A model generated the notes under the pieces. The model was not told the DNA's origin. It saw only the letters and a program-made list of their open reading frames with translations, and made no database searches. From a virus, in IMG/VR virus record IMGVR_UViG_3300030329_004030, positions 1 to 41,228 of that record: a DNA stretch of 41,228 nucleotides; one strand, written 5' to 3'. Positions 19,148-41,228 of the stretch are shown here, piece after piece (within the stretch, counting starts at the first letter, position 1; each line of letters begins with the position of its first letter). Both the position numbers and the translations under genes were made by a program.

Positions 19148-22075
19148 ATGGCTATCGAAAAGAACCTAGAGCAACCCCGCAGACCTTTGCAGCGCACCTT
19201 TAATGTGGGTGGGAGTGGCAATACGATGGTAGGAATGCCTCGTATTCAGGACACCAACATTGGTCGCGTGGGGACTGACTTTGGCGTTGCGGTTTCCAAT
19301 GTCCTTAACGTAATTGCTCAGAAGCGCCCAGAGAATATCCAGAAGGGAAGAGAGCTTCGGGCACTTGATCCTGACCTAACTGATGCTGAAATCTTTGAAA
19401 AGCATGGGATCTCTAGGATGTTCTCCAACCAATACCTGGAGGGCATGCATGAGCAACAGGCTGTCGATAGCTTTAGTCGAGGAGTCAATCAAGCGGCTGA
19501 ACGATTAGATGAGGTTGCGGTTGCGGACCCTAGTCTAAGTCCCGTTGATTTATCCGAGTACGATTCGGATATGTGGATGCAGAGTACTGAAGGGCTACCT
19601 GACGAAGTACGTGCAAATGTCCTCATCCGAGCGGCTGAAACCCGAGCAACTCGCGTAGCGAATTCAATGGTTGTTCAGAAGAATAAGCGGATCTTTGATG
19701 TGGGTCGCCAGTACTCTGAGGGGCTGGAAACACTCGATGATACTGATACGGGAGATAATGACGTTAATCGGTGGTTGGATTGGAATTCTGGGTTTCGTAA
19801 AGAGTTTGTGCCTAAAGGTTCAATGTCTGAACGGGAATACCTCGAAGCCATTTACCCAGCAATTGATGCCAAACTTCAAGACCCGGACCTAACTGATGCG
19901 GATTCAGAGAACCTAGAAGCACTCATTAAGCAAGCATTCAAGTCCCATCACGGTTATGAATCAGAATTGTTGAAGAAGTTGAGGAGTAATGACGAAACAC
20001 GGGAGCGTTGGAGGGAAGATGAAGCGGCGGATGAAAAGAGGGAGGAAGCGGATGCAGTGTGGAAGGATGCTATGGATAGTTTTGAACAGGGGGAAGAGCT
20101 TACACCCCAGCAACAGTCCGGTCTAGCTAGACACCGCCTAGCTGCCCCATTTGTTCAAGCAACAAATGCCTTAGTTGTTCTCAACGCTAGGTCGCCTAGT
20201 GAACATAATATGTTGGTTGCAGAGATTGCTTCTGGGGCAGTGACTTATGATCCTTCACTACTAATAAAGTCCACTCCAGCGCAAGGTAAAGAACTCCGAC
20301 AGGCGCGTGACGCAGGTGAGGAAGAAAGGTCTAACTCTGTGTACAGTCTTTGGGGAAACAGTCTAATCCAAAAAATTGCACCAGTTGTAGGTGCGGACTT
20401 AGACCATAGTGAAACCCCATCCTCTAGGGCCCCGCGTAATCCTCGTTTAGGTATACCAACATTATACCAACCAAGCACACCCGGTGGACCGAGTACTTTT
20501 AGCGTGGATTTTGGCAACCAACAGTATGCGTTTCGTTCAACCATCGAGGGTGCTGCTACTGACCGCTGGACTCAATTGAGTAATTCCGCAAGGCATCAAT
20601 TGTTGGTTTCTCATCGAGCAGACATGATTACTGAGTACTTGAGGTGGAATGCCTCTGAAACTCGTAGTTCTGCTGAGCAAATTGCTAAGCGAGAGTCGCT
20701 TCTGGATGCATACACAAAGAGCTTTTCAGAGAAGGTGGATAGCTTAACTCTTGCACCGACTGTGGACTCTCCTGTGGTTGAAACTGCTATGGGGACGGCA
20801 CCTCAAATAGCTTGGGACGAAGCGGCTAATTCAGTGGGGAGTGTTCTTGGGGTAGTTGTGGGGACTCCGTTTGAGGCTTTCGGAGATCATGTCATGGCAC
20901 CTCTGATGGAGTGGGGACTTGAGTCGCCAATACAAAGTCCAGGGGCGTTTCCTGGTCATAGAATCCGTTTTGATCTCGATCCACATCCTCTACTGCGTGA
21001 ACCATCACTACAAGAAACAATGCAGACCAAAGTCAAAGAATTCCAAGACACCTTCAAAGCTATAACATCCGAACGGTTTGAACGAGGACGGGAAGCGGCC
21101 CGAGGGTTTAGTGTGGTTAAGGGTCCAGGCGAGCATCCTTTTCCCGGTTCTCTTGAACGTGGTAGGACAATTGCGCGTGGGTTGGGGGTTACTGCAACTC
21201 CTTCAGTAGACATTTCAGGTATACGTTCTGATCTAGCGATGATCAAAGGTTTAGAACTAAGCCCGAAAGGTCGAAAAGTCCAAAGTCAGATGATTGAGAT
21301 GAGTCATCAGTTACGGGACAAAATTCTGAAAGAAGTCAAGCCTGACCTTGAGTTGTTGAAAGAGTGGGATAGGCAAGCAGTTAGGGACTATGAAGGACGC
21401 GCCCGTGCGCAAGAGGTTGCAAGAGGACTAGAGCTAGCGGAGGCTCCAGAACTACCTGAGATTCCCGATGCATTTCCTCACGGTAGCCCCATGGATAGGT
21501 TGTGGAGGGCCACTCCCGAGTTTCAGCAAAGGGTGCGTTCATCAGAGACGCGGAAGAAAACAAAAGAAGCGATTAAGAAGGGGCTGGAGAAAACAAAAGA
21601 AACGATTAAGAAGGGGCAGGTAGGTACGCGAAAGGTTGTGAGTGGGATAAGTATTGATAAGAGTGTCCCACCTCTCATCACCCCTGAATTGATTGCGGTA
21701 GGAGAACACTTGCAAGGTCGCCTAGAAGACACCCGAGAAAACCTCCAAGGCTTGAGTGTTCAGAAGGTGGATAGGAATGCTTTAGAGGCTCAGCTTGAGG
21801 CAGACATCAAGGACTACGAAGTGTTTAAAAGAGAAGTAGAAAAACTTAGAGATCGCATTGAAGTATCGGTGGATGAAACACTTAGGCTACAGGGGGGGAG
21901 TAAGTTCCAGATACCCACTATTCCAGGGTCCTTAAAGCGTGCGCGTAGCCGGGCGCGAGAGTTGGAAGTCACTACTACCCCAGATCAAATCCTTTCCTTG
22001 ATCCTTACTACTGCTGAGTTGTCTCCTGGCGCGAAAGCAATGAACAAAGATCTTGAAGAGAGAACAGGACAATAA
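19148..22075 (+). CDS. Internal virion protein C, T7 gp15-like
   Basis: 975 residues, longer than T7 gp15 (747). It is mostly helical and charged. N-terminal part: N-V-G-G-S-G-N-T-M-V-G-M-P-R and a repeated D-P-D-L-T-D-A motif. It forms the periplasmic part of the DNA ejection tube. The C-terminal third is unusual: R-G-R-E-A-A-R-G-F-S-V (about residue 646), R-G-R-T-I-A-R-G-L-G-V (671), R-A-Q-E-V-A-R-G-L-E-L (753) and R-A-R-S-R-A-R-E-L-E-V (931) are copies of one motif, two followed by T-x-T-P and later L-S-P. A lysine-rich tandem duplication sits near residue 803. Confidence 0.82.
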   Translation: MAIEKNLEQPRRPLQRTFNVGGSGNTMVGMPRIQDTNIGRVGTDFGVAVSNVLNVIAQKRPENIQKGRELRALDPDLTDAEIFEKHGISRMFSNQYLEGMHEQQAVDSFSRGVNQAAERLDEVAVADPSLSPVDLSEYDSDMWMQSTEGLPDEVRANVLIRAAETRATRVANSMVVQKNKRIFDVGRQYSEGLETLDDTDTGDNDVNRWLDWNSGFRKEFVPKGSMSEREYLEAIYPAIDAKLQDPDLTDADSENLEALIKQAFKSHHGYESELLKKLRSNDETRERWREDEAADEKREEADAVWKDAMDSFEQGEELTPQQQSGLARHRLAAPFVQATNALVVLNARSPSEHNMLVAEIASGAVTYDPSLLIKSTPAQGKELRQARDAGEEERSNSVYSLWGNSLIQKIAPVVGADLDHSETPSSRAPRNPRLGIPTLYQPSTPGGPSTFSVDFGNQQYAFRSTIEGAATDRWTQLSNSARHQLLVSHRADMITEYLRWNASETRSSAEQIAKRESLLDAYTKSFSEKVDSLTLAPTVDSPVVETAMGTAPQIAWDEAANSVGSVLGVVVGTPFEAFGDHVMAPLMEWGLESPIQSPGAFPGHRIRFDLDPHPLLREPSLQETMQTKVKEFQDTFKAITSERFERGREAARGFSVVKGPGEHPFPGSLERGRTIARGLGVTATPSVDISGIRSDLAMIKGLELSPKGRKVQSQMIEMSHQLRDKILKEVKPDLELLKEWDRQAVRDYEGRARAQEVARGLELAEAPELPEIPDAFPHGSPMDRLWRATPEFQQRVRSSETRKKTKEAIKKGLEKTKETIKKGQVGTRKVVSGISIDKSVPPLITPELIAVGEHLQGRLEDTRENLQGLSVQKVDRNALEAQLEADIKDYEVFKREVEKLRDRIEVSVDETLRLQGGSKFQIPTIPGSLKRARSRARELEVTTTPDQILSLILTTAELSPGAKAMNKDLEERTGQ
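21555..21617 (+). repeat. 33-bp tandem duplication inside the gp15-like gene
   Basis: Two 30-base cores starting at 21555 and 21588 differ at one position. They encode K-K-T-K-E-A-I-K-K-G-L then K-K-T-K-E-T-I-K-K-G-Q in frame. The near identity suggests a recent duplication that lengthens a basic helix. Confidence 0.85.
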
Positions 22076-26132: not shown

Positions 26133-27107
26133 ATGGCAACCACTGAGAAACTTTATGACGGGGATGAAACCCCGTTCACCATCACCTTTCAGTACATTGA
26201 AGACTCTGATATTCAGGTACAACTGAATACTGTGATTCAAACCATCAACACTCACTACACAATTGTAGGTGGAGTAGTGGTATTTGATGGCAGCATCTCG
26301 CTGAGTGGTACGGATAAGATCGTGATCACGCGAGTGACTGGTGAAGATCCAAAAGTAGCCTGGACTGATGCTGTAAAGATCCTGCCTAGTGACTTAGACA
26401 AAACACTTAAGCAACCACTGTACACCGTCCACGAACTGAAGAGTTCTACCGATACCAATACCACCAGCATCGCTACCAATACCGCCAACATTGCCACTCA
26501 GACGGGAAAGGTTCTTCAAGACTCTCCAGCGGTAACGTCTATTATCTTTGAGCATTTGAACATGGGGGCTTATGCAACTCCCACTAACACCGATGATGTC
26601 CTACTCAATGATTCAGGTGGGACACTGGAGTATGGTGATTACGTTCAACTTCCGAAACCCACCGTTCCCACTGCAATATATGGGAGTGACTGGGATGTTT
26701 CTTCGGCTGTGGATAATTTGAGATTTGGGTGTTTGCGAACTGGTACATACCGAATTTCATTTGATGTGCTGTACGTTGATATGCCTACTGCTAATACAAC
26801 CTTGAGTATAGAGCTATGGGATTCTGCTGGAAGTACTCTCCATCTTGAGCAGAAATTCGTGAACATGCACCACTCGACTGCAACAGCAAACCCCGAGCAC
26901 TTTCGCACATTCACCACACAGTCTGGTAGTACTTACATCACAGGAACCGCTGGCGATTCAACTTCACGCTTACTTATCTGGTATGCGCCTCTGCGAAAAG
27001 GATTTGGTGAAATTCCTCCTGGGGGTAGTACTACCCTAGATTCCAGCTTGACTCCTGCTGATGATATGTCTTTCGTTATGAAGATCAATTTCTGGAGAGT
27101 GCTATGA
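26133..27107 (+). CDS. Tail fibre protein, T7 gp17 N-terminal type
   Basis: 324 residues. The first 120 residues follow the T7 gp17 virion-attachment domain (P-F-T-I-T-F-Q-Y-I, V-V-F-D-G-S-I-S-L, K-I-V-I-T-R-V-T, then Q-P-L-Y-T-V-H-E-L). A short coiled-coil follows (T-N-T-T-S-I-A-T-N-T-A-N-I-A-T). The C-terminal part is beta-rich and could be a jelly-roll receptor-binding tip. It is shorter than T7 gp17 (553), so additional fibre proteins may attach, possibly the protein at 29886. It overlaps the next gene by ATGA. Confidence 0.9.
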   Translation: MATTEKLYDGDETPFTITFQYIEDSDIQVQLNTVIQTINTHYTIVGGVVVFDGSISLSGTDKIVITRVTGEDPKVAWTDAVKILPSDLDKTLKQPLYTVHELKSSTDTNTTSIATNTANIATQTGKVLQDSPAVTSIIFEHLNMGAYATPTNTDDVLLNDSGGTLEYGDYVQLPKPTVPTAIYGSDWDVSSAVDNLRFGCLRTGTYRISFDVLYVDMPTANTTLSIELWDSAGSTLHLEQKFVNMHHSTATANPEHFRTFTTQSGSTYITGTAGDSTSRLLIWYAPLRKGFGEIPPGGSTTLDSSLTPADDMSFVMKINFWRVL

Positions 27108-28179: not shown

Positions 28180-29889
28180 ATGAATACAAGTGAAAAAGCC
28201 CGGAAGGACTTCCGCACCTTCCTATGGTTAGTTTGGAATCACTTAGGTCTCCCTGAGCCCACCCCAGTGCAATACGATATGGGACTCTTCATGAGTGATC
28301 CCAATCTGTCCCGGAAGCTCTTGATGGCATTCCGAGGTGTGGGGAAGAGCTATGTGTGTAGTGCTTATGTTCTCTGGAGGTTATATGGGAATCCTAATCT
28401 CAATATCCTGGTAGTCTCAGCCTCGAAGGATCGTTCAGACGCATTTGCACGTTTCACGAAGATGTTGATTCACGATATGCCCCTTCTGAGGGACATGAAG
28501 CCCCGTCACGGGCACGGTTTCGATTCGGTAGAGAAGTTCACAGTGGGTAATGCTGTGGTCAGTCAGTCGCCCTCAGTGAAGTCTGTGGGCCTTTATGGAC
28601 AGATCACAGGTACACGCGCAGACATCATTGTGAGTGATGACTGTGAGGTTCCCAACAACTCCGAGACGATAACCCAACAAGACAAGCTCGCAGAGAGGGT
28701 CAAGGAGTTTGCGGCTATCTTGAAGCCGGATGAGCCCAACGAACCCCAGCGAGAGATAATTTATCTTGGGACTCCCCAAACTGAATCCTCACTATACACA
28801 AAACTACCTGAGAGGGGTTATGTAAGCCGTATCTGGCCTGCAAGGGTTCCCCAACCAAAGGATGTGGACAAATACGAGGGCAAGCTGGCTCCCTTGGTGT
28901 ACGAGAGGATTGACACCAAAGCTCCAGGAACCCCCATCGATACTCGATTTGACCATGAAGAACTCAATGAGAGGGAAGCTGAGTACGGTCGAAGTGGGTT
29001 TAGTCTTCAATATCAACTGGACACTTCACTCTCTGATGCTGATCGGTATCCCCTCAAGTGCCGTGATTTCATTGTCATGGATATTGATAATGATGTGGCC
29101 CCGGAGAAGATCGTTTGGACAAGTGACAAGGAAAAGGCACTCAACATCCCCATGCTAGGTCTGGTGGGCGATAGGTGGTATGGGAGAGTTCCACTTCCCG
29201 ATGAAGCCTTCCTACCTTACCAGGGATCAGTGATGGCAATCGACCCGTCTGGAAGGGGCGCAGATGAGACGGGTTATGTGGTTGTAAAGATGCTCAATGG
29301 GCAACTATTTCTTAGTGCCTGTGGGGGCTTTAAGGGGGGATACGATAAGAAGACCTTGGCAAAGCTCGCCAACATTGCCAAAGAGCAAAAGGTCAATCTC
29401 ATTCTGATTGAGCCTAACTTCGGTGATGGGATGTTCAATGAGCTTTTCAAGCCAGTGTGTCATGCGATCTATAAGGTGACCATTGAAGACGCTCCCAGGG
29501 CTTCCACGATGAAGGAAGGCAGGATCATCGATGTTTTGGAGCCTATTCTCAATCAACATCGGTTGATCATTGATAAGTCTCTCATCGTTAAAGACGCCAA
29601 AGAAACCGATGAAAGTGACCCACACTACATCCATCGGCGTCTAGTCCACCAGTTGACCCGCTTGACCCGTCAAAGGGGAGCCCTCAAGCACGATGACCGC
29701 ATCGATCCCCTTGCGATGGCTTGTGCTTATTGGGTGGATCAAATAGGGGTCAATGTTGAGGAAGCGGCGTCAGATCGCCGAGGTGAAGAGATTGAGAACC
29801 TACTCCATGACTTTATGGGGAGTGTCTTTGGAAGAGAAGAACCGTTACACAGAACTTGGCTGGATCAGTCAGGGATTAGGAGTTCATGA
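28180..29889 (+). CDS. Terminase large subunit, T7 gp19-like
   Basis: 569 residues (T7 gp19 586). ATPase domain: Walker A-type L-M-A-F-R-G-V-G-K-S-Y about residues 47-57, and Walker B D-I-I-V-S-D-D-C-E. Nuclease domain: A-I-D-P-S-G-R-G-A-D-E-T-G with the first catalytic Asp, then L-I-E-P-N-F-G-D-G and, near the C-terminus, K-H-D-D-R-I-D. It cuts concatemeric DNA and powers packaging through the portal. It overlaps the next gene by ATGA. Confidence 0.96.
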   Translation: MNTSEKARKDFRTFLWLVWNHLGLPEPTPVQYDMGLFMSDPNLSRKLLMAFRGVGKSYVCSAYVLWRLYGNPNLNILVVSASKDRSDAFARFTKMLIHDMPLLRDMKPRHGHGFDSVEKFTVGNAVVSQSPSVKSVGLYGQITGTRADIIVSDDCEVPNNSETITQQDKLAERVKEFAAILKPDEPNEPQREIIYLGTPQTESSLYTKLPERGYVSRIWPARVPQPKDVDKYEGKLAPLVYERIDTKAPGTPIDTRFDHEELNEREAEYGRSGFSLQYQLDTSLSDADRYPLKCRDFIVMDIDNDVAPEKIVWTSDKEKALNIPMLGLVGDRWYGRVPLPDEAFLPYQGSVMAIDPSGRGADETGYVVVKMLNGQLFLSACGGFKGGYDKKTLAKLANIAKEQKVNLILIEPNFGDGMFNELFKPVCHAIYKVTIEDAPRASTMKEGRIIDVLEPILNQHRLIIDKSLIVKDAKETDESDPHYIHRRLVHQLTRLTRQRGALKHDDRIDPLAMACAYWVDQIGVNVEEAASDRRGEEIENLLHDFMGSVFGREEPLHRTWLDQSGIRSS

Positions 29890-30989
29890 TGAGGTTTCTG
29901 CTAGTAGTGCTTTTAGTGTTGTTTGCAGGAGGAGCATCCGCACAACACACCAGGGTTGAAGGGGGAGATGGGATCACCGTCTCAGGCACTCCGATGAATC
30001 CAATTATCAGTACAACTGCTGATGACCTCGTAATCAAAGAAGAAGGGACTGCCCTGGGAGATGGGGTTCCTGCGACCTCTATTGATTTCGTGGGAACTGG
30101 GGTGACTGCTGTAGCCGATGCGAGTAACAAAAATGAATTGACGGTGACCTTTACGGGCGGGAGTGGGTCTGGGGGGACGAATGATACTCCCAGCAACTCT
30201 GGAAGTTCTAATGGAGAGACTACTGTAAATGACGCAACAAATGACTTCTCCATTGGTGGCACTGGGAATGTGTCGGGTACTGAGTTCTTCTTCGATACGT
30301 CCGAAGGAACACTTCATCTGAACCACCCTGGAGCGAAGGTGATTGTTGAGCCTCACGCGGACAATGGGTCAGCGATGGTGCTTAGCGAGGGGACCAATGA
30401 TGGCAGTGAGACGTACACGCTCAAGGTGGATGACGGTGGACTTGCCGACAACTACACATGCACAATCGGGTCTGATGGCACTTGGAGTGGGACTGGTTGC
30501 CCAACAAGCCCAACAGCCCCTGAAGAGATCCTCGTTTACGAAATCGCACCCACAGGAACTTGGAACAACGCCTACCCCAGCACAGCCAATTCCACAATCA
30601 CTGCCCATATGCACAAAGGTACAGGCACAACACCAAAAACAATGAGTGGCACGGGAGATGATTTCTTCACACTGAAAAGCGGATCGATCTACGAGATTGT
30701 CTACTGGACCCAAGCGGGTGTGGGCAACTCAGGAGCGTCCGCTGTGAGTTGCCGAACTACCCCCTACCTCAACGGGAATGACGATCCTTACGTCACCTAC
30801 CCACTGACTGTGAACGGAACCGCAGGATCAACGGGTCTCGTTAGACTGATGGGCCGCATCACCTTATGGATCACAGCGTCTTCGGGGGACACTTGGTCTC
30901 CGTATGGTGGCTCCTGCAGCTTTGATAATGATGATGGATCAGCGGGCACTGATGGATCGATCTTTATTGTGGTTAAGAGGTGGACATGA
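29886..30989 (+). CDS. Exported Gly/Thr/Ser-rich fibre-like protein
   Basis: 367 residues. The N-terminus is a clear signal peptide (R-F-L-L-V-V-L-L-V-L-F-A-G-G-A-S-A, cleavage before Q). The mature N-terminal part resembles fibre repeats (G-G-D-G-I-T-V-S-G-T-P, G-T-G-V-T-A-V-A-D). A low-complexity linker follows (G-G-S-G-S-G-G-T-N-D), then a beta-rich C-terminal domain with S-G-T-G-D-D-F-F-T-L-K-S-G-S. Composition suggests a fibre or adhesin, but a cleavable signal is unusual for a virion fibre. Either the hydrophobic start has another role in the virion, or the protein is displayed or released by the infected cell. Start is ATG 29886 or 29889. Confidence 0.75.
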   Translation: MMRFLLVVLLVLFAGGASAQHTRVEGGDGITVSGTPMNPIISTTADDLVIKEEGTALGDGVPATSIDFVGTGVTAVADASNKNELTVTFTGGSGSGGTNDTPSNSGSSNGETTVNDATNDFSIGGTGNVSGTEFFFDTSEGTLHLNHPGAKVIVEPHADNGSAMVLSEGTNDGSETYTLKVDDGGLADNYTCTIGSDGTWSGTGCPTSPTAPEEILVYEIAPTGTWNNAYPSTANSTITAHMHKGTGTTPKTMSGTGDDFFTLKSGSIYEIVYWTQAGVGNSGASAVSCRTTPYLNGNDDPYVTYPLTVNGTAGSTGLVRLMGRITLWITASSGDTWSPYGGSCSFDNDDGSAGTDGSIFIVVKRWT

Positions 30990-32800
30990 TCAAACTTGCA
31001 CTTCTCCTTCTCCTTCTCCCCACCCTCTCCTTTGCCAGTTCCTTCTCCGGCGGATCAGCAAGCCAGAGCGTCCTGGGGAACCAATCTCGAGATAACATCA
31101 ACATCATCGTCTTTATGATTGATGACATTGGTCGCGAGGCTTTCCCGCAACTCAATGCTCTATGGAAGGACGATGGTTCTGATACGTTCGATGATATGGA
31201 CTACGGCAACCGCTACCCAGTCCTTACAGCGAGCGACCTTCCCAACCTTACCAAACTCCAAGAAAACGGGATCACCTTTGATGGGATGTGGTCTGGGACT
31301 CAATGCACACCTAGTCGGAACTTACTCCGAAACGGAGTTTTCGATCCATACGATGGAAGCCCTCAGTTTTCAGGAACCCCCAAGCGCCGCATACAGGATC
31401 AGACTGGGGAAGCGTATAAGATCTACCACTACGGAAAAGAAATTATGGGGTGTTCATCCAACGCTGATAACTGCGGAACGGAAGTGAATGGCCCACAGAA
31501 CAACTACCGGACTGGGTCCGATAGCCATGGCTGGTTAGATGGGACTGTGGGGGGTGTCTTCGGTGAGACCTTCCAAACCTACACAAACACTGACTACACC
31601 GGAGTTGCCACAGATGTACCCAATGACACTGAACTAATGGCAATCAGTGGAGACTACCTCCAACTACAAGATGAATTTGGGTTTGAGCAGGGTAAAGACT
31701 ATATCGAGACCCTTTACGCCTCTCCGATGCCCCAGGGTATAGGGGATCACTGGAGGGGTCAACCGTTCATTATGACGTTAGGGTGGCATGGAGTCCATGC
31801 GTCAGGTGGACCTATCTGTGCATCAGTCACTTCGACCGCTACAAATGGACGGGTAAAGCCTGTTGCGGATCAGGTCACAGCGTACCAGACTGCGGGGAGT
31901 GGGCGTGGAGCGGCGGGGGATTCCGATGCTGCTCCCTATGGACCGGAAACACGAGTCTATAGCAGTAGTTCCACCCCCACCTTCGCCAACGTCACCTCTG
32001 ATGCAGGTACTGGAGCAGACTTCTTCAAGGCCTACTATGATTGTCATATCAATTCTGGTCTAATTTGGCTGGACACAAAGCTAGGTGAACTGATCGATTG
32101 GTTGGGTCCTGAAGGACTTAAGCAGACTCTCATCATCTTCACGGGAGACAATGGCACTGAGTCATACAGCATCCCTAACCGAACCGGGATCTGTCCTCCT
32201 GCCACTTCAGGTGGCGCAGCGGTCACCCACCTGCTTGAAGATGACTCCTCTGAAATTGGGAAGTGTACCATTGCAGGCAGTGAGGTGACTGCTGTAGGCA
32301 AGATGACCGTTTCCGAGACCGGTCTCAATGTGCCCTTTGTGGTCGGCTATGGGCCTATCCCAGAGGCTGTTCGAGGCACCACCTCTAAAGCTAGGTTGAC
32401 CTTTGGGGATGTGGCTGAGACTGTTGTTCAACTGATCGCTCCCAACTCAACAGGGAGTGGCTACTACAGTGAGGGAAGAGACTTCAGTCCAATCATCTTA
32501 GGGACCGAAGCAGACCCTGACCGGCCGAGTGGGTTTGGGGCCACTGTCTCGATGGTAGATGGCACTAGTGTCTCCGCAGTCTTGCAACCGGATGCTAGTG
32601 GGGACATCTACAGGATGTGGAGAAACTATGATGGAGGATCTGGAGTGTGTGACTACATCCAGAACCTTGCGGACTCGAACTGGTATACGAACCTACGAGG
32701 CTCAAGTGATACAGAAGTAGTTGATGCAATTGATGACCTTGATACCGCTATTACTACGGCTTATTCGATCACTGAAGGGGGATCATCATGCGATCCTTGA
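30986..32800 (+). CDS. Exported type I sulfatase (formylglycine-type)
   Basis: 604 residues with signal peptide (L-A-L-L-L-L-L-L-P-T-L-S-F-A, cut near residue 17). Sulfatase S1 motifs occur in the family order: metal-binding D46-D47 (F-M-I-D-D-I-G), L-P-N-L-T-K-L-Q-E-N-G-I-T-F, then the activation motif C107-T-P-S-R with L-L-R-N-G after it, Y-G-K-E-I-M-G where the family has G-K-W-H-L-G, G-W-H-G-V-H, and F-T-G-D-N-G, then G-K-M-T-V-S-E-T-G-L-N-V-P. Cys107 would be converted to formylglycine by a host enzyme; none is encoded here. One active-site His seems replaced by Ile (G-K-E-I), although the alignment there is uncertain. Substrate is unknown, plausibly sulfated polysaccharide. Start ATG 30986 follows AAGAGG. 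Confidence 0.88.
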   Translation: MIKLALLLLLLPTLSFASSFSGGSASQSVLGNQSRDNINIIVFMIDDIGREAFPQLNALWKDDGSDTFDDMDYGNRYPVLTASDLPNLTKLQENGITFDGMWSGTQCTPSRNLLRNGVFDPYDGSPQFSGTPKRRIQDQTGEAYKIYHYGKEIMGCSSNADNCGTEVNGPQNNYRTGSDSHGWLDGTVGGVFGETFQTYTNTDYTGVATDVPNDTELMAISGDYLQLQDEFGFEQGKDYIETLYASPMPQGIGDHWRGQPFIMTLGWHGVHASGGPICASVTSTATNGRVKPVADQVTAYQTAGSGRGAAGDSDAAPYGPETRVYSSSSTPTFANVTSDAGTGADFFKAYYDCHINSGLIWLDTKLGELIDWLGPEGLKQTLIIFTGDNGTESYSIPNRTGICPPATSGGAAVTHLLEDDSSEIGKCTIAGSEVTAVGKMTVSETGLNVPFVVGYGPIPEAVRGTTSKARLTFGDVAETVVQLIAPNSTGSGYYSEGRDFSPIILGTEADPDRPSGFGATVSMVDGTSVSAVLQPDASGDIYRMWRNYDGGSGVCDYIQNLADSNWYTNLRGSSDTEVVDAIDDLDTAITTAYSITEGGSSCDP

Positions 32801-33096
32801 TATTTCTACTACTCATTACCTTCGGTCTTCCCCTCACAGCCTCTAGTGACCCAGACGCACATAGGTACTGCATGGAAGTCCTCTCCAGTCCGCGAGGAGG
32901 CCAAGAAGCGCCCGCTTTGGAGCTGAATAGGAAATTTAGAGGGCTTGTTGAGTCTCAGGAAGAGTGGGACAAGGTAGTTTCGATTGTTCTTGAGACTTGG
33001 CATGTGGCGTGTTTCAGCCTTTATGGAGTTCAGGACACCCGTGCTAGGGATAATCAAATGCCTTGGGTGTCGCCTGGAAGACTTTGCGTTGATTAA
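32788..33096 (+). CDS. Small exported protein with signal peptide, 102 aa
   Basis: Begins M-R-S-L-I-F-L-L-L-I-T-F-G-L-P-L-T-A-S-S, a signal peptide cut after T-A or nearby. The mature part has three cysteines (R-Y-C, V-A-C-F, L-C-V-D) and a helical middle (E-E-W-D-K-V-V-S-I-V-L-E-T-W). No family is recognised. It overlaps the sulfatase stop by 13 bp, so the two are co-translated. It may be a partner, inhibitor or chaperone of the sulfatase; this is inference from coupling and shared export. Confidence 0.7.
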   Translation: MRSLIFLLLITFGLPLTASSDPDAHRYCMEVLSSPRGGQEAPALELNRKFRGLVESQEEWDKVVSIVLETWHVACFSLYGVQDTRARDNQMPWVSPGRLCVD

Positions 33097-34255: not shown

Positions 34256-34282
34256 GTGATCACAACAAAAGGGAGCAACATC

Positions 34283-35098
34283 ATGAATATCGCGAATATC
34301 GCGACCACTGAAGTCCAGGAACTAAGAGAGTATTTCGAGGGACCCCATGGACCCGATAGCCCAATCAGTAAAGGACACCCACTACTATCACAAGGGGCCA
34401 CTAATGCTAAAACTAAGAAGAAGGCCCAGGGGATCTATTCAATCATTCTGTATCTGGCCCCAGCCAAAACTTCAGGCCTCCCTAAAACCCTATGCCCCTG
34501 TGCGACCCTAGGCTGCACCCAAGCGTGTCTCTACACCGCCGGCCATGGCGCAAAGGGTACCGTGCAGGCGGCGCGAATCCGTAAAGCGCGCTGGTATCTA
34601 TTGGATCGCGAAAGATTTCTCGCGAGACTGAATCGGGAACTGGCCCACCACTACAAGAAAGCACAATCTCTCAAGATGTTGATGGCGGTGCGATTGAACG
34701 GAACATCAGATATCGCGTGGGAGAAATTTGACCTTGTGACTTTCAATCGGGCCGGTGTAGTGCACTACGACTATACGAAAATAGAATCGAGAGTAGCTAA
34801 ATCCTCAAAAGTAGGGTGGCCGTTGAACTACACACTAACCCTATCCTATAACGAAAACATGCCAGCGTATAGGGTGCGCAATCTCTCGAAACGTGGTGTA
34901 AACATCGCGGTAGTGACGAATGTTCCTAAAAACAATCCACTACCCACTAGCCTCGAATTCGCTGGACAAAGTATTCCAGTACTAGATGGTCGCGCGGACG
35001 ATTGGAGATGGCGCGATACTCCCGGGCATATCGTGGGATTGTCGGCATTGGGGGCGGCGAAAAGAGACACTAGCGGTTTTGTAGTTACGCCAGCGTAA
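34283..35098 (+). CDS. Phage gp88 / DUF7227-like protein
   Basis: 271 residues from ATG 34283 after AAAAGGGAGCAACATC. The pattern I recognise is Y-S-I-I-L-Y-L-A-P-A, then the cysteine cluster L-C-P-C-A-T-L-G-C-T-Q-A-C-L-Y-T-A-G, R-L-N-G-T-S-D-I-A-W-E, H-Y-D-Y-T-K and the C-terminal G-H-I-V-G-L-S-A-L-G-A-A-K. This family is spread through phages and plasmids with unknown function. The four closely spaced cysteines suggest metal or iron-sulfur binding. It has its own leader and terminator, like an independently acquired cassette. Two TATCGCG motifs fall in its first codons. Confidence 0.8.
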   Translation: MNIANIATTEVQELREYFEGPHGPDSPISKGHPLLSQGATNAKTKKKAQGIYSIILYLAPAKTSGLPKTLCPCATLGCTQACLYTAGHGAKGTVQAARIRKARWYLLDRERFLARLNRELAHHYKKAQSLKMLMAVRLNGTSDIAWEKFDLVTFNRAGVVHYDYTKIESRVAKSSKVGWPLNYTLTLSYNENMPAYRVRNLSKRGVNIAVVTNVPKNNPLPTSLEFAGQSIPVLDGRADDWRWRDTPGHIVGLSALGAAKRDTSGFVVTPA

Positions 35099-38020: not shown

Positions 38021-38078
38021 TAGCCAACTTGACAAACATTTGCCCGCGCCAACCATACGAAAAATAAGGGAGAATACC

Positions 38079-39077
38079 TTGGAAACCAACGCCATTGACA
38101 CAGCAATTGAAGCACTCCAAAACCAACTAAATGCTCTACTTTTAGCCAGAAATGAGGCCCCACCAGCCCTTCCCACCAGCCCAGATCAAAGTGGGGTCTC
38201 AGAACTGATTGATAATTTTGTTCGATCAAAACTTACTTCTCGCGAATGGTCGGAGAAGTACGCAATCAATGTGACCTTCGCGCTCAAGAAGTGGCACAGA
38301 ACGATGAATCACGGGTCGGTTGGATTAATCACAACAGCCAACCTCCTAGATTATCGGGATCGGCTGTTGGAAATGAAAACCAAGAACGGAACGCCCACCA
38401 GTATCACCACCGTCAACGCCCACATGAAATACCTCTCACAGCTCCTGGAGTACGCTGTGTCGAGAGATATTATTTCCCGCACCCCTGCTACCCACCTGAA
38501 GATTAAGTCGCACCTGAGCGATCTCAGCGACTCTGAGCGGCGGTTGCCGTTTACGCCAGCGGAAGCAGTCCAAGTGATGAAGCTTGGCTGGCTCCCTACT
38601 ATCATGGGGTACACCGGCGCGAGAAATCTTGAGGTACTCCAGCTTCGCAAACGCGATGTGTACGAGGTCGAGGGAATTCTGGTATTTGACCTTCAGACGC
38701 TCGATGCAGGCCAGAGGCGGAAGACCAGAGCATCGAGGCGGCTGATCCCAGTCCACCCACAACTCATCGCAGAGGGCCTTCTGGGCCTCTTGAAAGGTGA
38801 CCCAGAGAGCCCCCTAGTGCCTCGACCAATCAATGATGGCGATTACGTCAAGTCAATCAATCGGCGAATTCGCGCCAAGATCCCTGACCCGAGAAAAACA
38901 CTCTACTCCCTGCGCCACACCTTCCGCACCGAGTTGGCTGATCTAGTCTCCAAAGAGGCCAATCTTGATCGACTGATGGGCCACACTCAGAAGACCATCG
39001 GTCGGAGGGTCTACACAAAATTTGATCTTCAAACTCTCAAAGATGAGTTGTCAAAACTAAAATACCCGCTAGACTAA
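38079..39077 (+). CDS. int: Tyrosine-family integrase
   Basis: 332 residues with the start set at TTG 38079, which follows AATAAGGGAGAATACC. An in-frame TTG at 38040 lacks a ribosome site. The N-terminal core-binding domain (S-E-L-I-D-N-F-V-R-S-K-L, then L-S-Q-L-L-E-Y-A-V-S) precedes the catalytic domain with Arg in T-G-A-R-N-L-E-V-L-Q-L, Lys/Arg in R-R-K-T-R-A-S-R-R-L-I, H-x-x-R in S-L-R-H-T-F-R, the G-H in L-M-G-H-T-Q-K-T and the nucleophile Tyr in R-R-V-Y-T-K-F. All catalytic residues are present, so integration should be possible. The tRNA-Leu fragment adjacent to it is the probable attachment site. Confidence 0.95.
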   Translation: METNAIDTAIEALQNQLNALLLARNEAPPALPTSPDQSGVSELIDNFVRSKLTSREWSEKYAINVTFALKKWHRTMNHGSVGLITTANLLDYRDRLLEMKTKNGTPTSITTVNAHMKYLSQLLEYAVSRDIISRTPATHLKIKSHLSDLSDSERRLPFTPAEAVQVMKLGWLPTIMGYTGARNLEVLQLRKRDVYEVEGILVFDLQTLDAGQRRKTRASRRLIPVHPQLIAEGLLGLLKGDPESPLVPRPINDGDYVKSINRRIRAKIPDPRKTLYSLRHTFRTELADLVSKEANLDRLMGHTQKTIGRRVYTKFDLQTLKDELSKLKYPLD

Positions 39078-39438: not shown

Positions 39439-41228
39439 ATGGAAGATGTGATGGTGCAGCGGGGAAAGTCTCGCTACCTCCGCAAGGTGTTGAACGGTGT
39501 CAAGCGCGGCCAAGTCTCCGACACCTCCGTTGCCGCCAAGTCCTTGATTTCCACTCTCCTCCCTGTGGTCATCGAGTCGCTCAAGAACGATGACCCAGAG
39601 CGGGGGGTGGGTGCTCAAGCAGCACATAAGATCGAAGAAGTTGGATTTGAATTCTGTGCGTACATTGGGATTCGAGTTCTCATGGACAAGATGGTCTATG
39701 TCGATTCTCCGCCGAAAGTGTCCACGGTCATCCATCTGATCGGACGCAGTATCCAAGACGAAGCTCTGATGAAGAGCTTCCAAGAGACCGAGCCAAGGAT
39801 CTTTGAGATTGCCAGGGAGCAAGGTCTCAAGAAACGGGGGGCGGGGGTACGTGAAGCCCTCGTATGGCTCATGAAGGGCAACCCGAATCTCGAATGGGAA
39901 CCCTGGGACAACCCTACAAAGGTACGGGTCGGCACAAAGATCCTCTCGCACATCTTGTCGGCGAGTGAGTTCTTCGATCTGAAGACCGTCCAGCACGGAA
40001 AGCGATCAATCAAAAGCATCGTGCCCTCAAAAGACCTCATCAGCCAACTGCGAACTCTCGATCTTCAGGTGGCTCTCAGTCGCCCACTTTATCTGCCCAT
40101 GCTTGAACCTCCTATGGACTGGACAACCCCATACGATGGTGGGTATCGGCATCTGGCCTCGAAGCTTGTCAAGAACACAACCCCAGAGCACCTCCAGGCA
40201 CTTGAGAGTTGCAACATGCCGGAGGTCTACGAGGCACTGAACAAATTGCAGAAAGTGCCTTATCAAATTAACTCTGATGTATTGACTGTGTTGGAACACT
40301 TCTGGCGTGAGGGCGATTCAGTTGCTGGTCTTCCTCCACAAGAACCTCACCCAATCCCTCCATGGCCGAGTGATTTAGGTAAGTGGGTGGATCTCGAAGG
40401 GGAAGAGAAAGACCGGGCATGGGCTTGGAAGAAGATGGCTCAAGCTATCCATGCTGAAAACTCCTCGAATGTCTCCCGAGTGATTTCTACCCGGTCAACT
40501 CTTGAAACTGCAAAAGAACTGGAGGGGCGAGACTTTTACTTCCCGATGTCTTTGGACTTCAGGTCGCGAGTCTACCCCACCCCTGGGTTCTCCCCGATGG
40601 GCGACAAGATGACCCGGGCTTTAATTAGGTTTTCACATTCATGTGTGATTGAGCCATCGTCAGAAGCAGTGCGGTATTTCTTGGCCCACGGGGCGCGCAT
40701 GGCCGGACTGGACAAGATCAATCTCAATGATCAAATCCAGTGGGTCATGCGGAATCGTGAGAGGATCATCGAGTGTTCCATTGATCCAATCTCAGATCTC
40801 TGGTGGGTGCAGCCCTGCGAGGAAGATGGTGAGCCTTGGCTGTTCTTGGCTTGGATGATGGAGGCGGGAGACTTCCTTCTCCATGGGAAAGCATTTGAGA
40901 GTCATCTACCCATCAGCTTCGATGCCACTTGTAGTGCTCTTCAGCACTGGTCAATGGCTCTGAGAGACGAAGAAGGTGCGAAGCGAGTCAACCTCATCGA
41001 CGGTGATCGGGCTGACGTGTACACCGAGGTGTTGAATGTTTTAAAGAAAAAGGTCGATCAAGTCTGGCTTGATTCACCGTATCTAACGCGAAAACTCTGC
41101 AAGACCCCCGCTATGGCTCGAACATATGGGGGGACTCGAATGGGAGTCAATCGGCATGTTTACAAAATCATCCACCAACTTGATGCGGGTCGCTATCTTC
41201 GTGACCATTTTCGGGATAGCGATATTCC
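39439..41228 (+). CDS. T7-type single-subunit RNA polymerase, N-terminal and central part
   Basis: Starts ATG 39439 (M-E-D-V-M-V-Q-R-G-K-S-R-Y-L) after TTTTGGGGTGTTC and stays open to the window edge, where it joins the 1-705 part through the 104-bp overlap. Motifs: L-D-F-R-S-R-V-Y-P-T-P-G-F-S-P-M-G-D (T7 D-W-R-G-R-V-Y), catalytic Asp in F-D-A-T-C-S-A-L-Q-H-W-S (T7 Asp537), R-D-E-E-G-A-K-R-V-N-L, and K-T-P-A-M-A-R-T-Y-G-G (T7 Lys631 and Tyr639). No frameshift is seen. About 796 residues in total. It transcribes phage genes from its own promoters, so its control sets the switch to lytic growth. Confidence 0.96.
   Translation, partial: MEDVMVQRGKSRYLRKVLNGVKRGQVSDTSVAAKSLISTLLPVVIESLKNDDPERGVGAQAAHKIEEVGFEFCAYIGIRVLMDKMVYVDSPPKVSTVIHLIGRSIQDEALMKSFQETEPRIFEIAREQGLKKRGAGVREALVWLMKGNPNLEWEPWDNPTKVRVGTKILSHILSASEFFDLKTVQHGKRSIKSIVPSKDLISQLRTLDLQVALSRPLYLPMLEPPMDWTTPYDGGYRHLASKLVKNTTPEHLQALESCNMPEVYEALNKLQKVPYQINSDVLTVLEHFWREGDSVAGLPPQEPHPIPPWPSDLGKWVDLEGEEKDRAWAWKKMAQAIHAENSSNVSRVISTRSTLETAKELEGRDFYFPMSLDFRSRVYPTPGFSPMGDKMTRALIRFSHSCVIEPSSEAVRYFLAHGARMAGLDKINLNDQIQWVMRNRERIIECSIDPISDLWWVQPCEEDGEPWLFLAWMMEAGDFLLHGKAFESHLPISFDATCSALQHWSMALRDEEGAKRVNLIDGDRADVYTEVLNVLKKKVDQVWLDSPYLTRKLCKTPAMARTYGGTRMGVNRHVYKIIHQLDAGRYLRDHFRDSDI
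41125..41228. repeat. End overlap, right copy (pairs with 1-104)
   Basis: Matches 1-104 at 102/104 positions, perfectly from 41131 on. It shows that the sequence is circular or circularly permuted, with the ends inside the RNA polymerase gene. Confidence 0.9.

Follow-up and report, generated by a model that had tools for sequence, protein, structure and literature searches.

A phage-encoded S1 sulfatase of predicted export, with conserved partner genes, suggests a phage tool for sulfated polysaccharides

The IMG/VR virus record IMGVR_UViG_3300030329_004030—41,228 nucleotides, analyzed over its full length and called "the window" here—carries a gene at positions 30986-32800 that reads as an exported sulfatase. 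What would a phage do with such an enzyme? By profile, alignment and motif, we confirm the gene as one for a predicted Cys-type S1 sulfatase, encoded by a phage, and we argue that it is best understood as part of a cassette. Wherever the locus is long enough, a fibre-like gene, the sulfatase gene and a small gene follow one another in that order, all with exported-type products, and this arrangement occurs in at least 10 distinct IMG/VR phages (the window phage included) of at least three structural types. Its presence across partly unrelated uncultured phages suggests a dedicated phage tool for sulfated slime or capsules. The original prediction for this DNA, that of an exported phage S1-type sulfatase with an intact Cys-type motif, coupled to a fibre-like gene, stands; its proposal that the enzyme might feed a lysogen finds no support. 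It also missed three points: the multi-gene exported cassette, a downstream partner conserved better than the sulfatase itself, and the loss of a Pro from the maturation motif in seven of nine phage members.

A search against the Pfam profile PF00884 (Sulfatase) bears out the assignment, with 42.7 bits against a cut-off of 25 (E = 5.7e-11), and the profile is matched by all nine phage sulfatases in our family alignment. The open reading frame also weakly matches phrog_19870, a PHROG of unknown function (E = 6.8e-6). The motif order of type I sulfatases claimed for it is present, each residue in its predicted place; K151 and H271 are identified here in addition. The features of the gene are as follows:

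30986..32800 (stop codon included), plus strand: predicted exported S1 sulfatase, 604 amino acids (PF00884, S1 fold class, catalytic columns)
30986..31036, plus strand: signal-peptide-like N-terminus of the sulfatase, MIKLALLLLLLPTLSFA (export rule given below; exact cut inferred)
31121..31126, plus strand: codons of the putative metal-site pair D46-D47 (alignment with phage and bacterial sulfatases)
31304..31318, plus strand: formylglycine motif C107-T-P-S-R111 (translation and alignments)
31436..31438, plus strand: K151 of the G-K motif, which reads GKEI, the His of G-K-x-H being replaced (alignments)
31796..31798, plus strand: predicted active-site H271 (alignments)
32147..32155, plus strand: D388-N389-G390 (alignments)
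32300..32302, plus strand: the late Lys, K439 (alignments)

The ATG at 30986 shares the letters ATGA with the stop codon of the upstream gene (the GTG at 30980 could serve as start instead), and the 3' end overlaps the small-protein gene by 13 bp.

How far should one trust these residues? Among 32 bacterial sulfatases, the columns of D46, D47, R111, K151, H271 and D388 are identical in 32/32, those of N389 and K439 in 31/32, and that of C107 holds Cys in 29 and Ser in 3. In the nine phage sulfatases, D46 (where covered), C107, R111, K151, H271, D388, N389 and K439 are all invariant, and D47 is replaced by Glu in two. That is, eight of nine catalytic positions are invariant over nine phage homologues (hypergeometric P ~4e-10), and the motif pattern is therefore not chance. 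The calcium site of the solved S1 sulfatase PyuS is made of Asp15, Asp16, Asp276, Asn277 and formylglycine-55 (PMC8746622); these correspond in the alignment to D46, D47, D388, N389 and C107, so that both the Asp-Asp and the Asp-Asn of such a site are present in the window protein. Four further Cys residues (278, 353, 555 and 602) are kept in most phage members.

Two motif positions deserve a closer look. The His of G-K-x-H had been thought replaced, and it is, by I153. Across the nine phage sulfatases this position reads I, M, L, Q, T, I, M, Q, G, and across the 32 nearest bacterial ones Gln (17) is commoner than His (11). A His two residues past the first active-site Lys is common in S1 sulfatases and not universal. 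Since the closest bacterial enzymes most often have Gln at this position, loss of the His need not disable the window enzyme, to judge from the alignments. The other position is in the maturation motif. The CTPSR of the window fits the pattern C/S-x-P/A-x-R, and C-x-P-x-R is intact in only two of the nine phage members, the window among them; the rest keep the Cys and the Arg, and the third residue runs P, A, A, T, A, V, M, P, A. The Pro is present in 30/32 bacterial sulfatases versus 2/9 phage ones (hypergeometric ~5e-5, a hand calculation uncorrected for relatedness).

An AlphaFold2 model built from nine input sequences points to the same fold class: its best 50 matches in the PDB are all sulfatases (best E = 2.0e-11, probability 1.00, TM-score 0.40-0.45 on the query), scattered over S1_16, S1_7, S1_19 and others. 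In a viral structure library, the sole good matches are giant-virus sulfatases. Model confidence is low around residues 103-107, and the model is adequate for predicting the S1 fold class and not for active-site distances. On the convergence of Cys107 and the Asp pairs, a condition set by the original prediction, the evidence is the indirect one of the alignment of these residues with known families.

The place of the sulfatase gene after the large terminase gene and its ATGA coupling to a fibre-like gene, both part of the original prediction, are confirmed by the coordinates:

28180..29889, plus strand: large terminase (phrog_38, E = 6.7e-109; ATGA overlap with the fibre-like gene)
29886..30989, plus strand: predicted exported fibre-like protein, 367 amino acids (signal-peptide-like start, fibre-like repeats)
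32788..33096, plus strand: predicted small exported protein, 102 amino acids (helical, two H-x-x-C motifs, directly 3' of the sulfatase)

The fibre-like protein belongs to no Pfam or PHROG family and has no match in phage records; a segment of ~65 amino acids is common to the same gene in all cassettes, and a search for it outside the cassette found nothing. The small protein likewise has no family match and was not found in phage records, and a helical model of it (predicted local distance difference test score, pLDDT, 72) matches no solved structure. In 11 of the 11 loci that show upstream sequence, the sulfatase lies directly upstream of the small-protein gene. With 44-51% identity to its homologues, the small protein is, in these alignments, more conserved than the sulfatase (20-45% identity to the window's). 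Both of its H-x-x-C motifs have an invariant His, and an M-P-W is invariant as well (alignment A6). Cys28 and Cys75, one in each motif, are lost together in locus L099 and both retained in the other aligned members, as would be expected of a disulfide in an oxidizing compartment; a shared metal site (copper or zinc) is as possible. In L086, L087, L094, L097 and L099, the cassette is headed by a further gene, for an exported protein of ~155 amino acids.

Export was called by a simple rule (a charged start, a hydrophobic core and small residues at the cut site), which supports the signal peptide originally predicted for the sulfatase: only 4 of the 37 window genes pass, 2426-2803 and the three of the cassette. 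The rule also holds for every complete homologue of the sulfatase, the fibre-like protein and the 155-residue protein, and the signal-peptide-like start of the sulfatase is kept in all of its complete homologues, followed by S-F-S-G-G-S-A-S or similar. The one passing gene outside the cassette, 2426-2803, lies among replication genes and encodes a small predicted exported protein with an EF-hand-like loop, DMDGDGVIGLDD.

As a sole query, the window sulfatase finds no relative in viral contigs, phages (best E = 0.5) or plasmids. Its relatives surfaced only through degenerate patterns derived from alignment (here with Escherichia coli YidJ and AslA and an Acinetobacter sulfatase), which gave four viral contigs at first and more in later rounds. 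Besides the window, the distinct phages are, by locus, L086; L087/L088 (two assemblies, counted as one phage); L089; L090; L099; L100; L096/L097; L094/L136 (99.9% identical over 6.2 kb); and L133. A further locus, L098, holds the end of the small gene only. The window phage, L094 and L100 are T7-like, the terminases of the latter two being 64% identical to the window's, and carry the cassette 3' of the terminase gene. L086 and L087/L088 have capsid phrog_1328, portal phrog_1216 and terminase phrog_2, with the cassette 3' of the capsid gene, and L097 has a third capsid type, phrog_371. In every case, the cassette is co-directional with its structural or packaging neighbors, among late genes. 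L094 has a remotely related sulfatase (20% identity to the window's) at this position, next to a small protein of the usual kind (47%); the position can thus be filled by quite different sulfatases. A sulfatase is absent from all 50 of the other terminase relatives, and the cassette is therefore not part of a general T7-like gene set. A search of the open-access literature turned up no comparable phage cassette, which is weak evidence of absence.

Close relatives show where these loci change. Between the near-identical phages L086 and L088, the 155-residue protein is 97% identical and the three proteins 3' of the cassette 97, 98 and 93%, the small protein is 87% identical, and the sulfatase is down to 51%; the fibre-like protein is 98% identical over its first 50 residues and ~25-28% over its C-terminal part. 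When the whole records are compared, with genes called automatically and some calls spurious, only one gene with a counterpart has diverged more than the sulfatase and fibre-like genes, which rank second and third. Between L089 and L090, the downstream proteins are 80-94% identical and the sulfatases, which fall in different subclades, 34%. Such islands of sequence divergence are typical of exchanged specificity genes. Over longer distances, the sulfatase is under purifying selection (L086/L087: nonsynonymous divergence, dN, 0.44; synonymous divergence, dS, saturated), and the close pair L099/L133 has dN/dS of ~0.66. As a separate observation, the two phages of L138-L141 (records G051 and G052), otherwise near-identical, differ strongly, besides the cassette, in the major capsid gene (69%) and in a gene of 840/760 amino acids (26%).

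Where did the sulfatase come from? At the sensitivity of a pattern-based search, which would miss remote prophages, we found no close relative among 50,697 phage records and 84,980 genomes of bacteria and archaea; the genomes yield remote sulfatases only, mostly at 22-35% identity over partial length, with Verrucomicrobiota, Planctomycetota and Bacteroidota as their main sources. A tree of 45 sequences sets the nine phage sulfatases on one side of a branch (support 98/91), and eight of them share a long stem (100/100); L094 is placed less surely because of its long branch. On this tree the phage sulfatases form one clade apart from the bacterial ones and so appear to have been long maintained in phages. 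The GC content of the gene, overall and at third codon positions (GC3), matches the rest of the phage genome. A recent transfer from bacteria was considered and rejected on these three counts: no close relative, a single phage clade and phage-like GC/GC3. Also set aside was the best match in the phage collection, Acinetobacter "phage" MD-2021a (L082, CAKLQH020000052.1), where the sulfatase stands beside porin, LysR and pkn1-annotated genes in what looks like bacterial DNA. A generic bacterial sulfatase query matched 34 records of that collection, mostly unannotated fecal contigs, and isolated matches there are therefore weak evidence for phage genes.

The window itself we take as a complete circularized genome of ~41.1 kb because its ends (1-104 and 41125-41228) overlap by 104 bp with two mismatches and an RNA-polymerase-like frame, recognized by reading, reaches and crosses them, splitting the gene there. 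It has the traits of a T7-like podovirus: portal, capsid, tail-tube and terminase genes (phrog_449, 267, 446, 457 and 38) and a single-subunit RNA polymerase, with genes for primase-helicase, DNA polymerase, ribonucleotide reductase, exonuclease, scaffold, tail proteins, internal virion proteins, tail fibre and terminases. The closest terminases among cultured phages, at 51-54% identity, are those of Rhizobium, Pseudomonas, Bordetella and Roseobacter phages. Downstream of the cassette lie helix-turn-helix (HTH) regulators and, at 38040-39077, a tyrosine-recombinase-like gene that scores under the Pfam cut-off, with HTH and MarR-like genes close by; lysogeny of this phage is possible, if unproven. 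The gene at 34256-35098 is of the GP88 family (PF17338, E = 1.6e-32), with homologues near the terminase in phages L080 and L072, and a gene for 975 amino acids at the internal-virion-protein position (19148-22075) has no PHROG match. Rfam and tRNA searches across the window gave no matches.

What, then, might the cassette be for? We propose a glycan-specific desulfating system, late and secreted, that works on sulfated polysaccharides of a surface or slime, a reading that we hold about as readily as we doubt it. A host formylglycine-generating enzyme (or its anaerobic counterpart) would convert Cys107; the sulfatase would leave the cytoplasm by the Sec route and, once outside, strip sulfate esters from the polysaccharide; the coupled fibre-like protein would bind the same glycan; and the small His/Cys protein would assist or stabilize the enzyme. 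The phage would profit towards the end of infection or at lysis, when a sulfated matrix is loosened or de-charged, or a sulfated receptor destroyed, and progeny that might be trapped on debris could reach the next cell. Formylglycine-generating enzymes encoded by phages have been described (PMC10232697); a search of 14 records found none, and maturation would then be up to the host, as had been predicted. Secretion and desulfation are suggested by the sulfatase profile and fold class, the conserved active-site residues and the signal-peptide-like starts; by the upkeep of the cassette in at least ten distinct phages of three structural types, where it runs in the direction of capsid, tail or terminase genes; and by the single phage clade together with the joint loss of Cys28 and Cys75 in L099. 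A variable glycan specificity is suggested because the sulfatase and the fibre C-terminus diverge while their flanks stay 93-98% identical. A bolder version, which we regard as doubtful, would make of this an undescribed phage secretion module: three or four late exported proteins (a desulfating enzyme, an exchangeable fibre-like binder and a small His/Cys helper among them) that together would destroy the receptor or matrix of hosts whose surfaces are sulfated; the drift to C-x-[A/T/V/M]-x-R in most members would imply relaxed or helper-assisted maturation.

Several points weigh against a secreted desulfating system. We infer its activity, host, maturation by that host, substrate, timing, place of action and benefit, and export alone would not separate a role in release from one in adsorption or exclusion. 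The signal peptides come from the simple rule rather than from SignalP, and the small-protein homologues, all with a hydrophobic core, lack a charged start in five of eight cases. The sulfatase model is of low confidence (mean pLDDT 55; predicted TM-score, pTM, 0.67). Finally, the Pro of the maturation motif has given way to Ala, Thr, Val or Met in seven of nine phage members. This last point, with the absent G-K-x-H His, would suit a protein that uses the fold to bind glycans, or to cleave phosphate esters, without formylglycine; the solved S1 sulfatase PyuS cleaves phosphate esters too (PMC8746622). The active-site Cys, Arg, both Lys, His, Asp and Asn are nonetheless invariant and the window keeps its full CTPSR, and we think such a non-catalytic or altered function very unlikely.

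Might the enzyme instead ride on the particle, desulfating the host capsule at adsorption together with the fibre-like protein, as a depolymerase would? The cassette does lie among capsid, tail and packaging genes, and its sulfatase and fibre C-terminus diverge together as receptor-binding modules do. But all cassette proteins have signal-peptide-like starts and would be exported from the cytoplasm, the site of virion assembly, and a tail-fibre gene distinct from the cassette, with a T7-like start, is present in the window (26133-27107); we consider a virion-borne enzyme unlikely. Exported proteins, and the recombinase gene and HTH regulators just 3' of the cassette, could also speak for remodeling of the infected or lysogenic cell, its sulfated coat altered so that superinfection is blocked or the surface changed. 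Against this stand the late-block position, the same in every relative, the sub-threshold score of the recombinase and the lack of any phage-integrase match in nine relative records, several of them fragmentary. Position and missing integrase also tell against the feeding of a lysogen, and surface remodeling seems to us quite unlikely. Most unlikely of all, we believe, is an auxiliary metabolic gene that scavenges sulfate or sugar from environmental sulfated polysaccharide during infection. Bacterial exported S1 sulfatases do just that, and sulfatases on potential prophage regions in fish-gut data have been given that name (PMC11077953), but no transporter or catabolic gene adjoins this one, its partners are a fibre-like gene and a small protein, and it diverges locally much faster than its neighbors.

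Sulfated polysaccharides are widespread, notably in the sea, and resist breakdown. If a secreted desulfating system is what the cassette encodes, it would be the phages' own means against sulfated coats or slime; it would indicate hosts that produce coats of this kind; and it would offer a testable case of a phage glycan enzyme that is secreted and not virion-borne. In addition, a maturation motif that has lost its Pro beside invariant catalytic residues allows the limits of formylglycine formation to be tested directly.

In profile, fold class, metal- and formylglycine-site residues and signal peptide, the predicted enzyme is like the bacterial exported S1 carbohydrate sulfatases (PF00884; S1_16, S1_7 and S1_19, with structures 9fo1, 7oz9, 6hhm and 6prm). 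It differs from them in being encoded by phages, in forming a separate clade at 22-35% identity at best, in its fixed phage partner genes, and in that the phage members mostly lack the G-K-x-H/Q residue and, in seven of nine, the Pro of C-x-P-x-R. The sulfatases of giant viruses (Satyrvirus, Terrestrivirus, Tetraselmis virus 1 and Yasminevirus) are virus-encoded and share the predicted fold, but those viruses infect eukaryotes, structural alignment gives 11-13% identity, and we know of no such cassette in them. Altered sulfatase activity has been described in VHML lysogens (PMC6359870). Phage-labeled contigs (the fecal contigs, Acinetobacter MD-2021a and the prophage regions of PMC11077953) hold PF00884-type genes too; these are of the ordinary bacterial type, partly in clearly bacterial DNA, lack the cassette and show no similarity to the window protein that tblastn can detect.

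Two other comparisons concern role. Receptor-destroying enzymes of the influenza neuraminidase type free progeny by taking a charged group off a receptor glycan, as the sulfatase might; the likeness would be one of role only, with no homology to the window sulfatase. Phage capsule depolymerases and tailspikes, like the proposed system, act on host surface polysaccharide and have an exchangeable specificity part, but they are virion-borne and cleave the polymer, whereas the window sulfatase is predicted to remove sulfate, has a signal-peptide-like start and is of another fold family.

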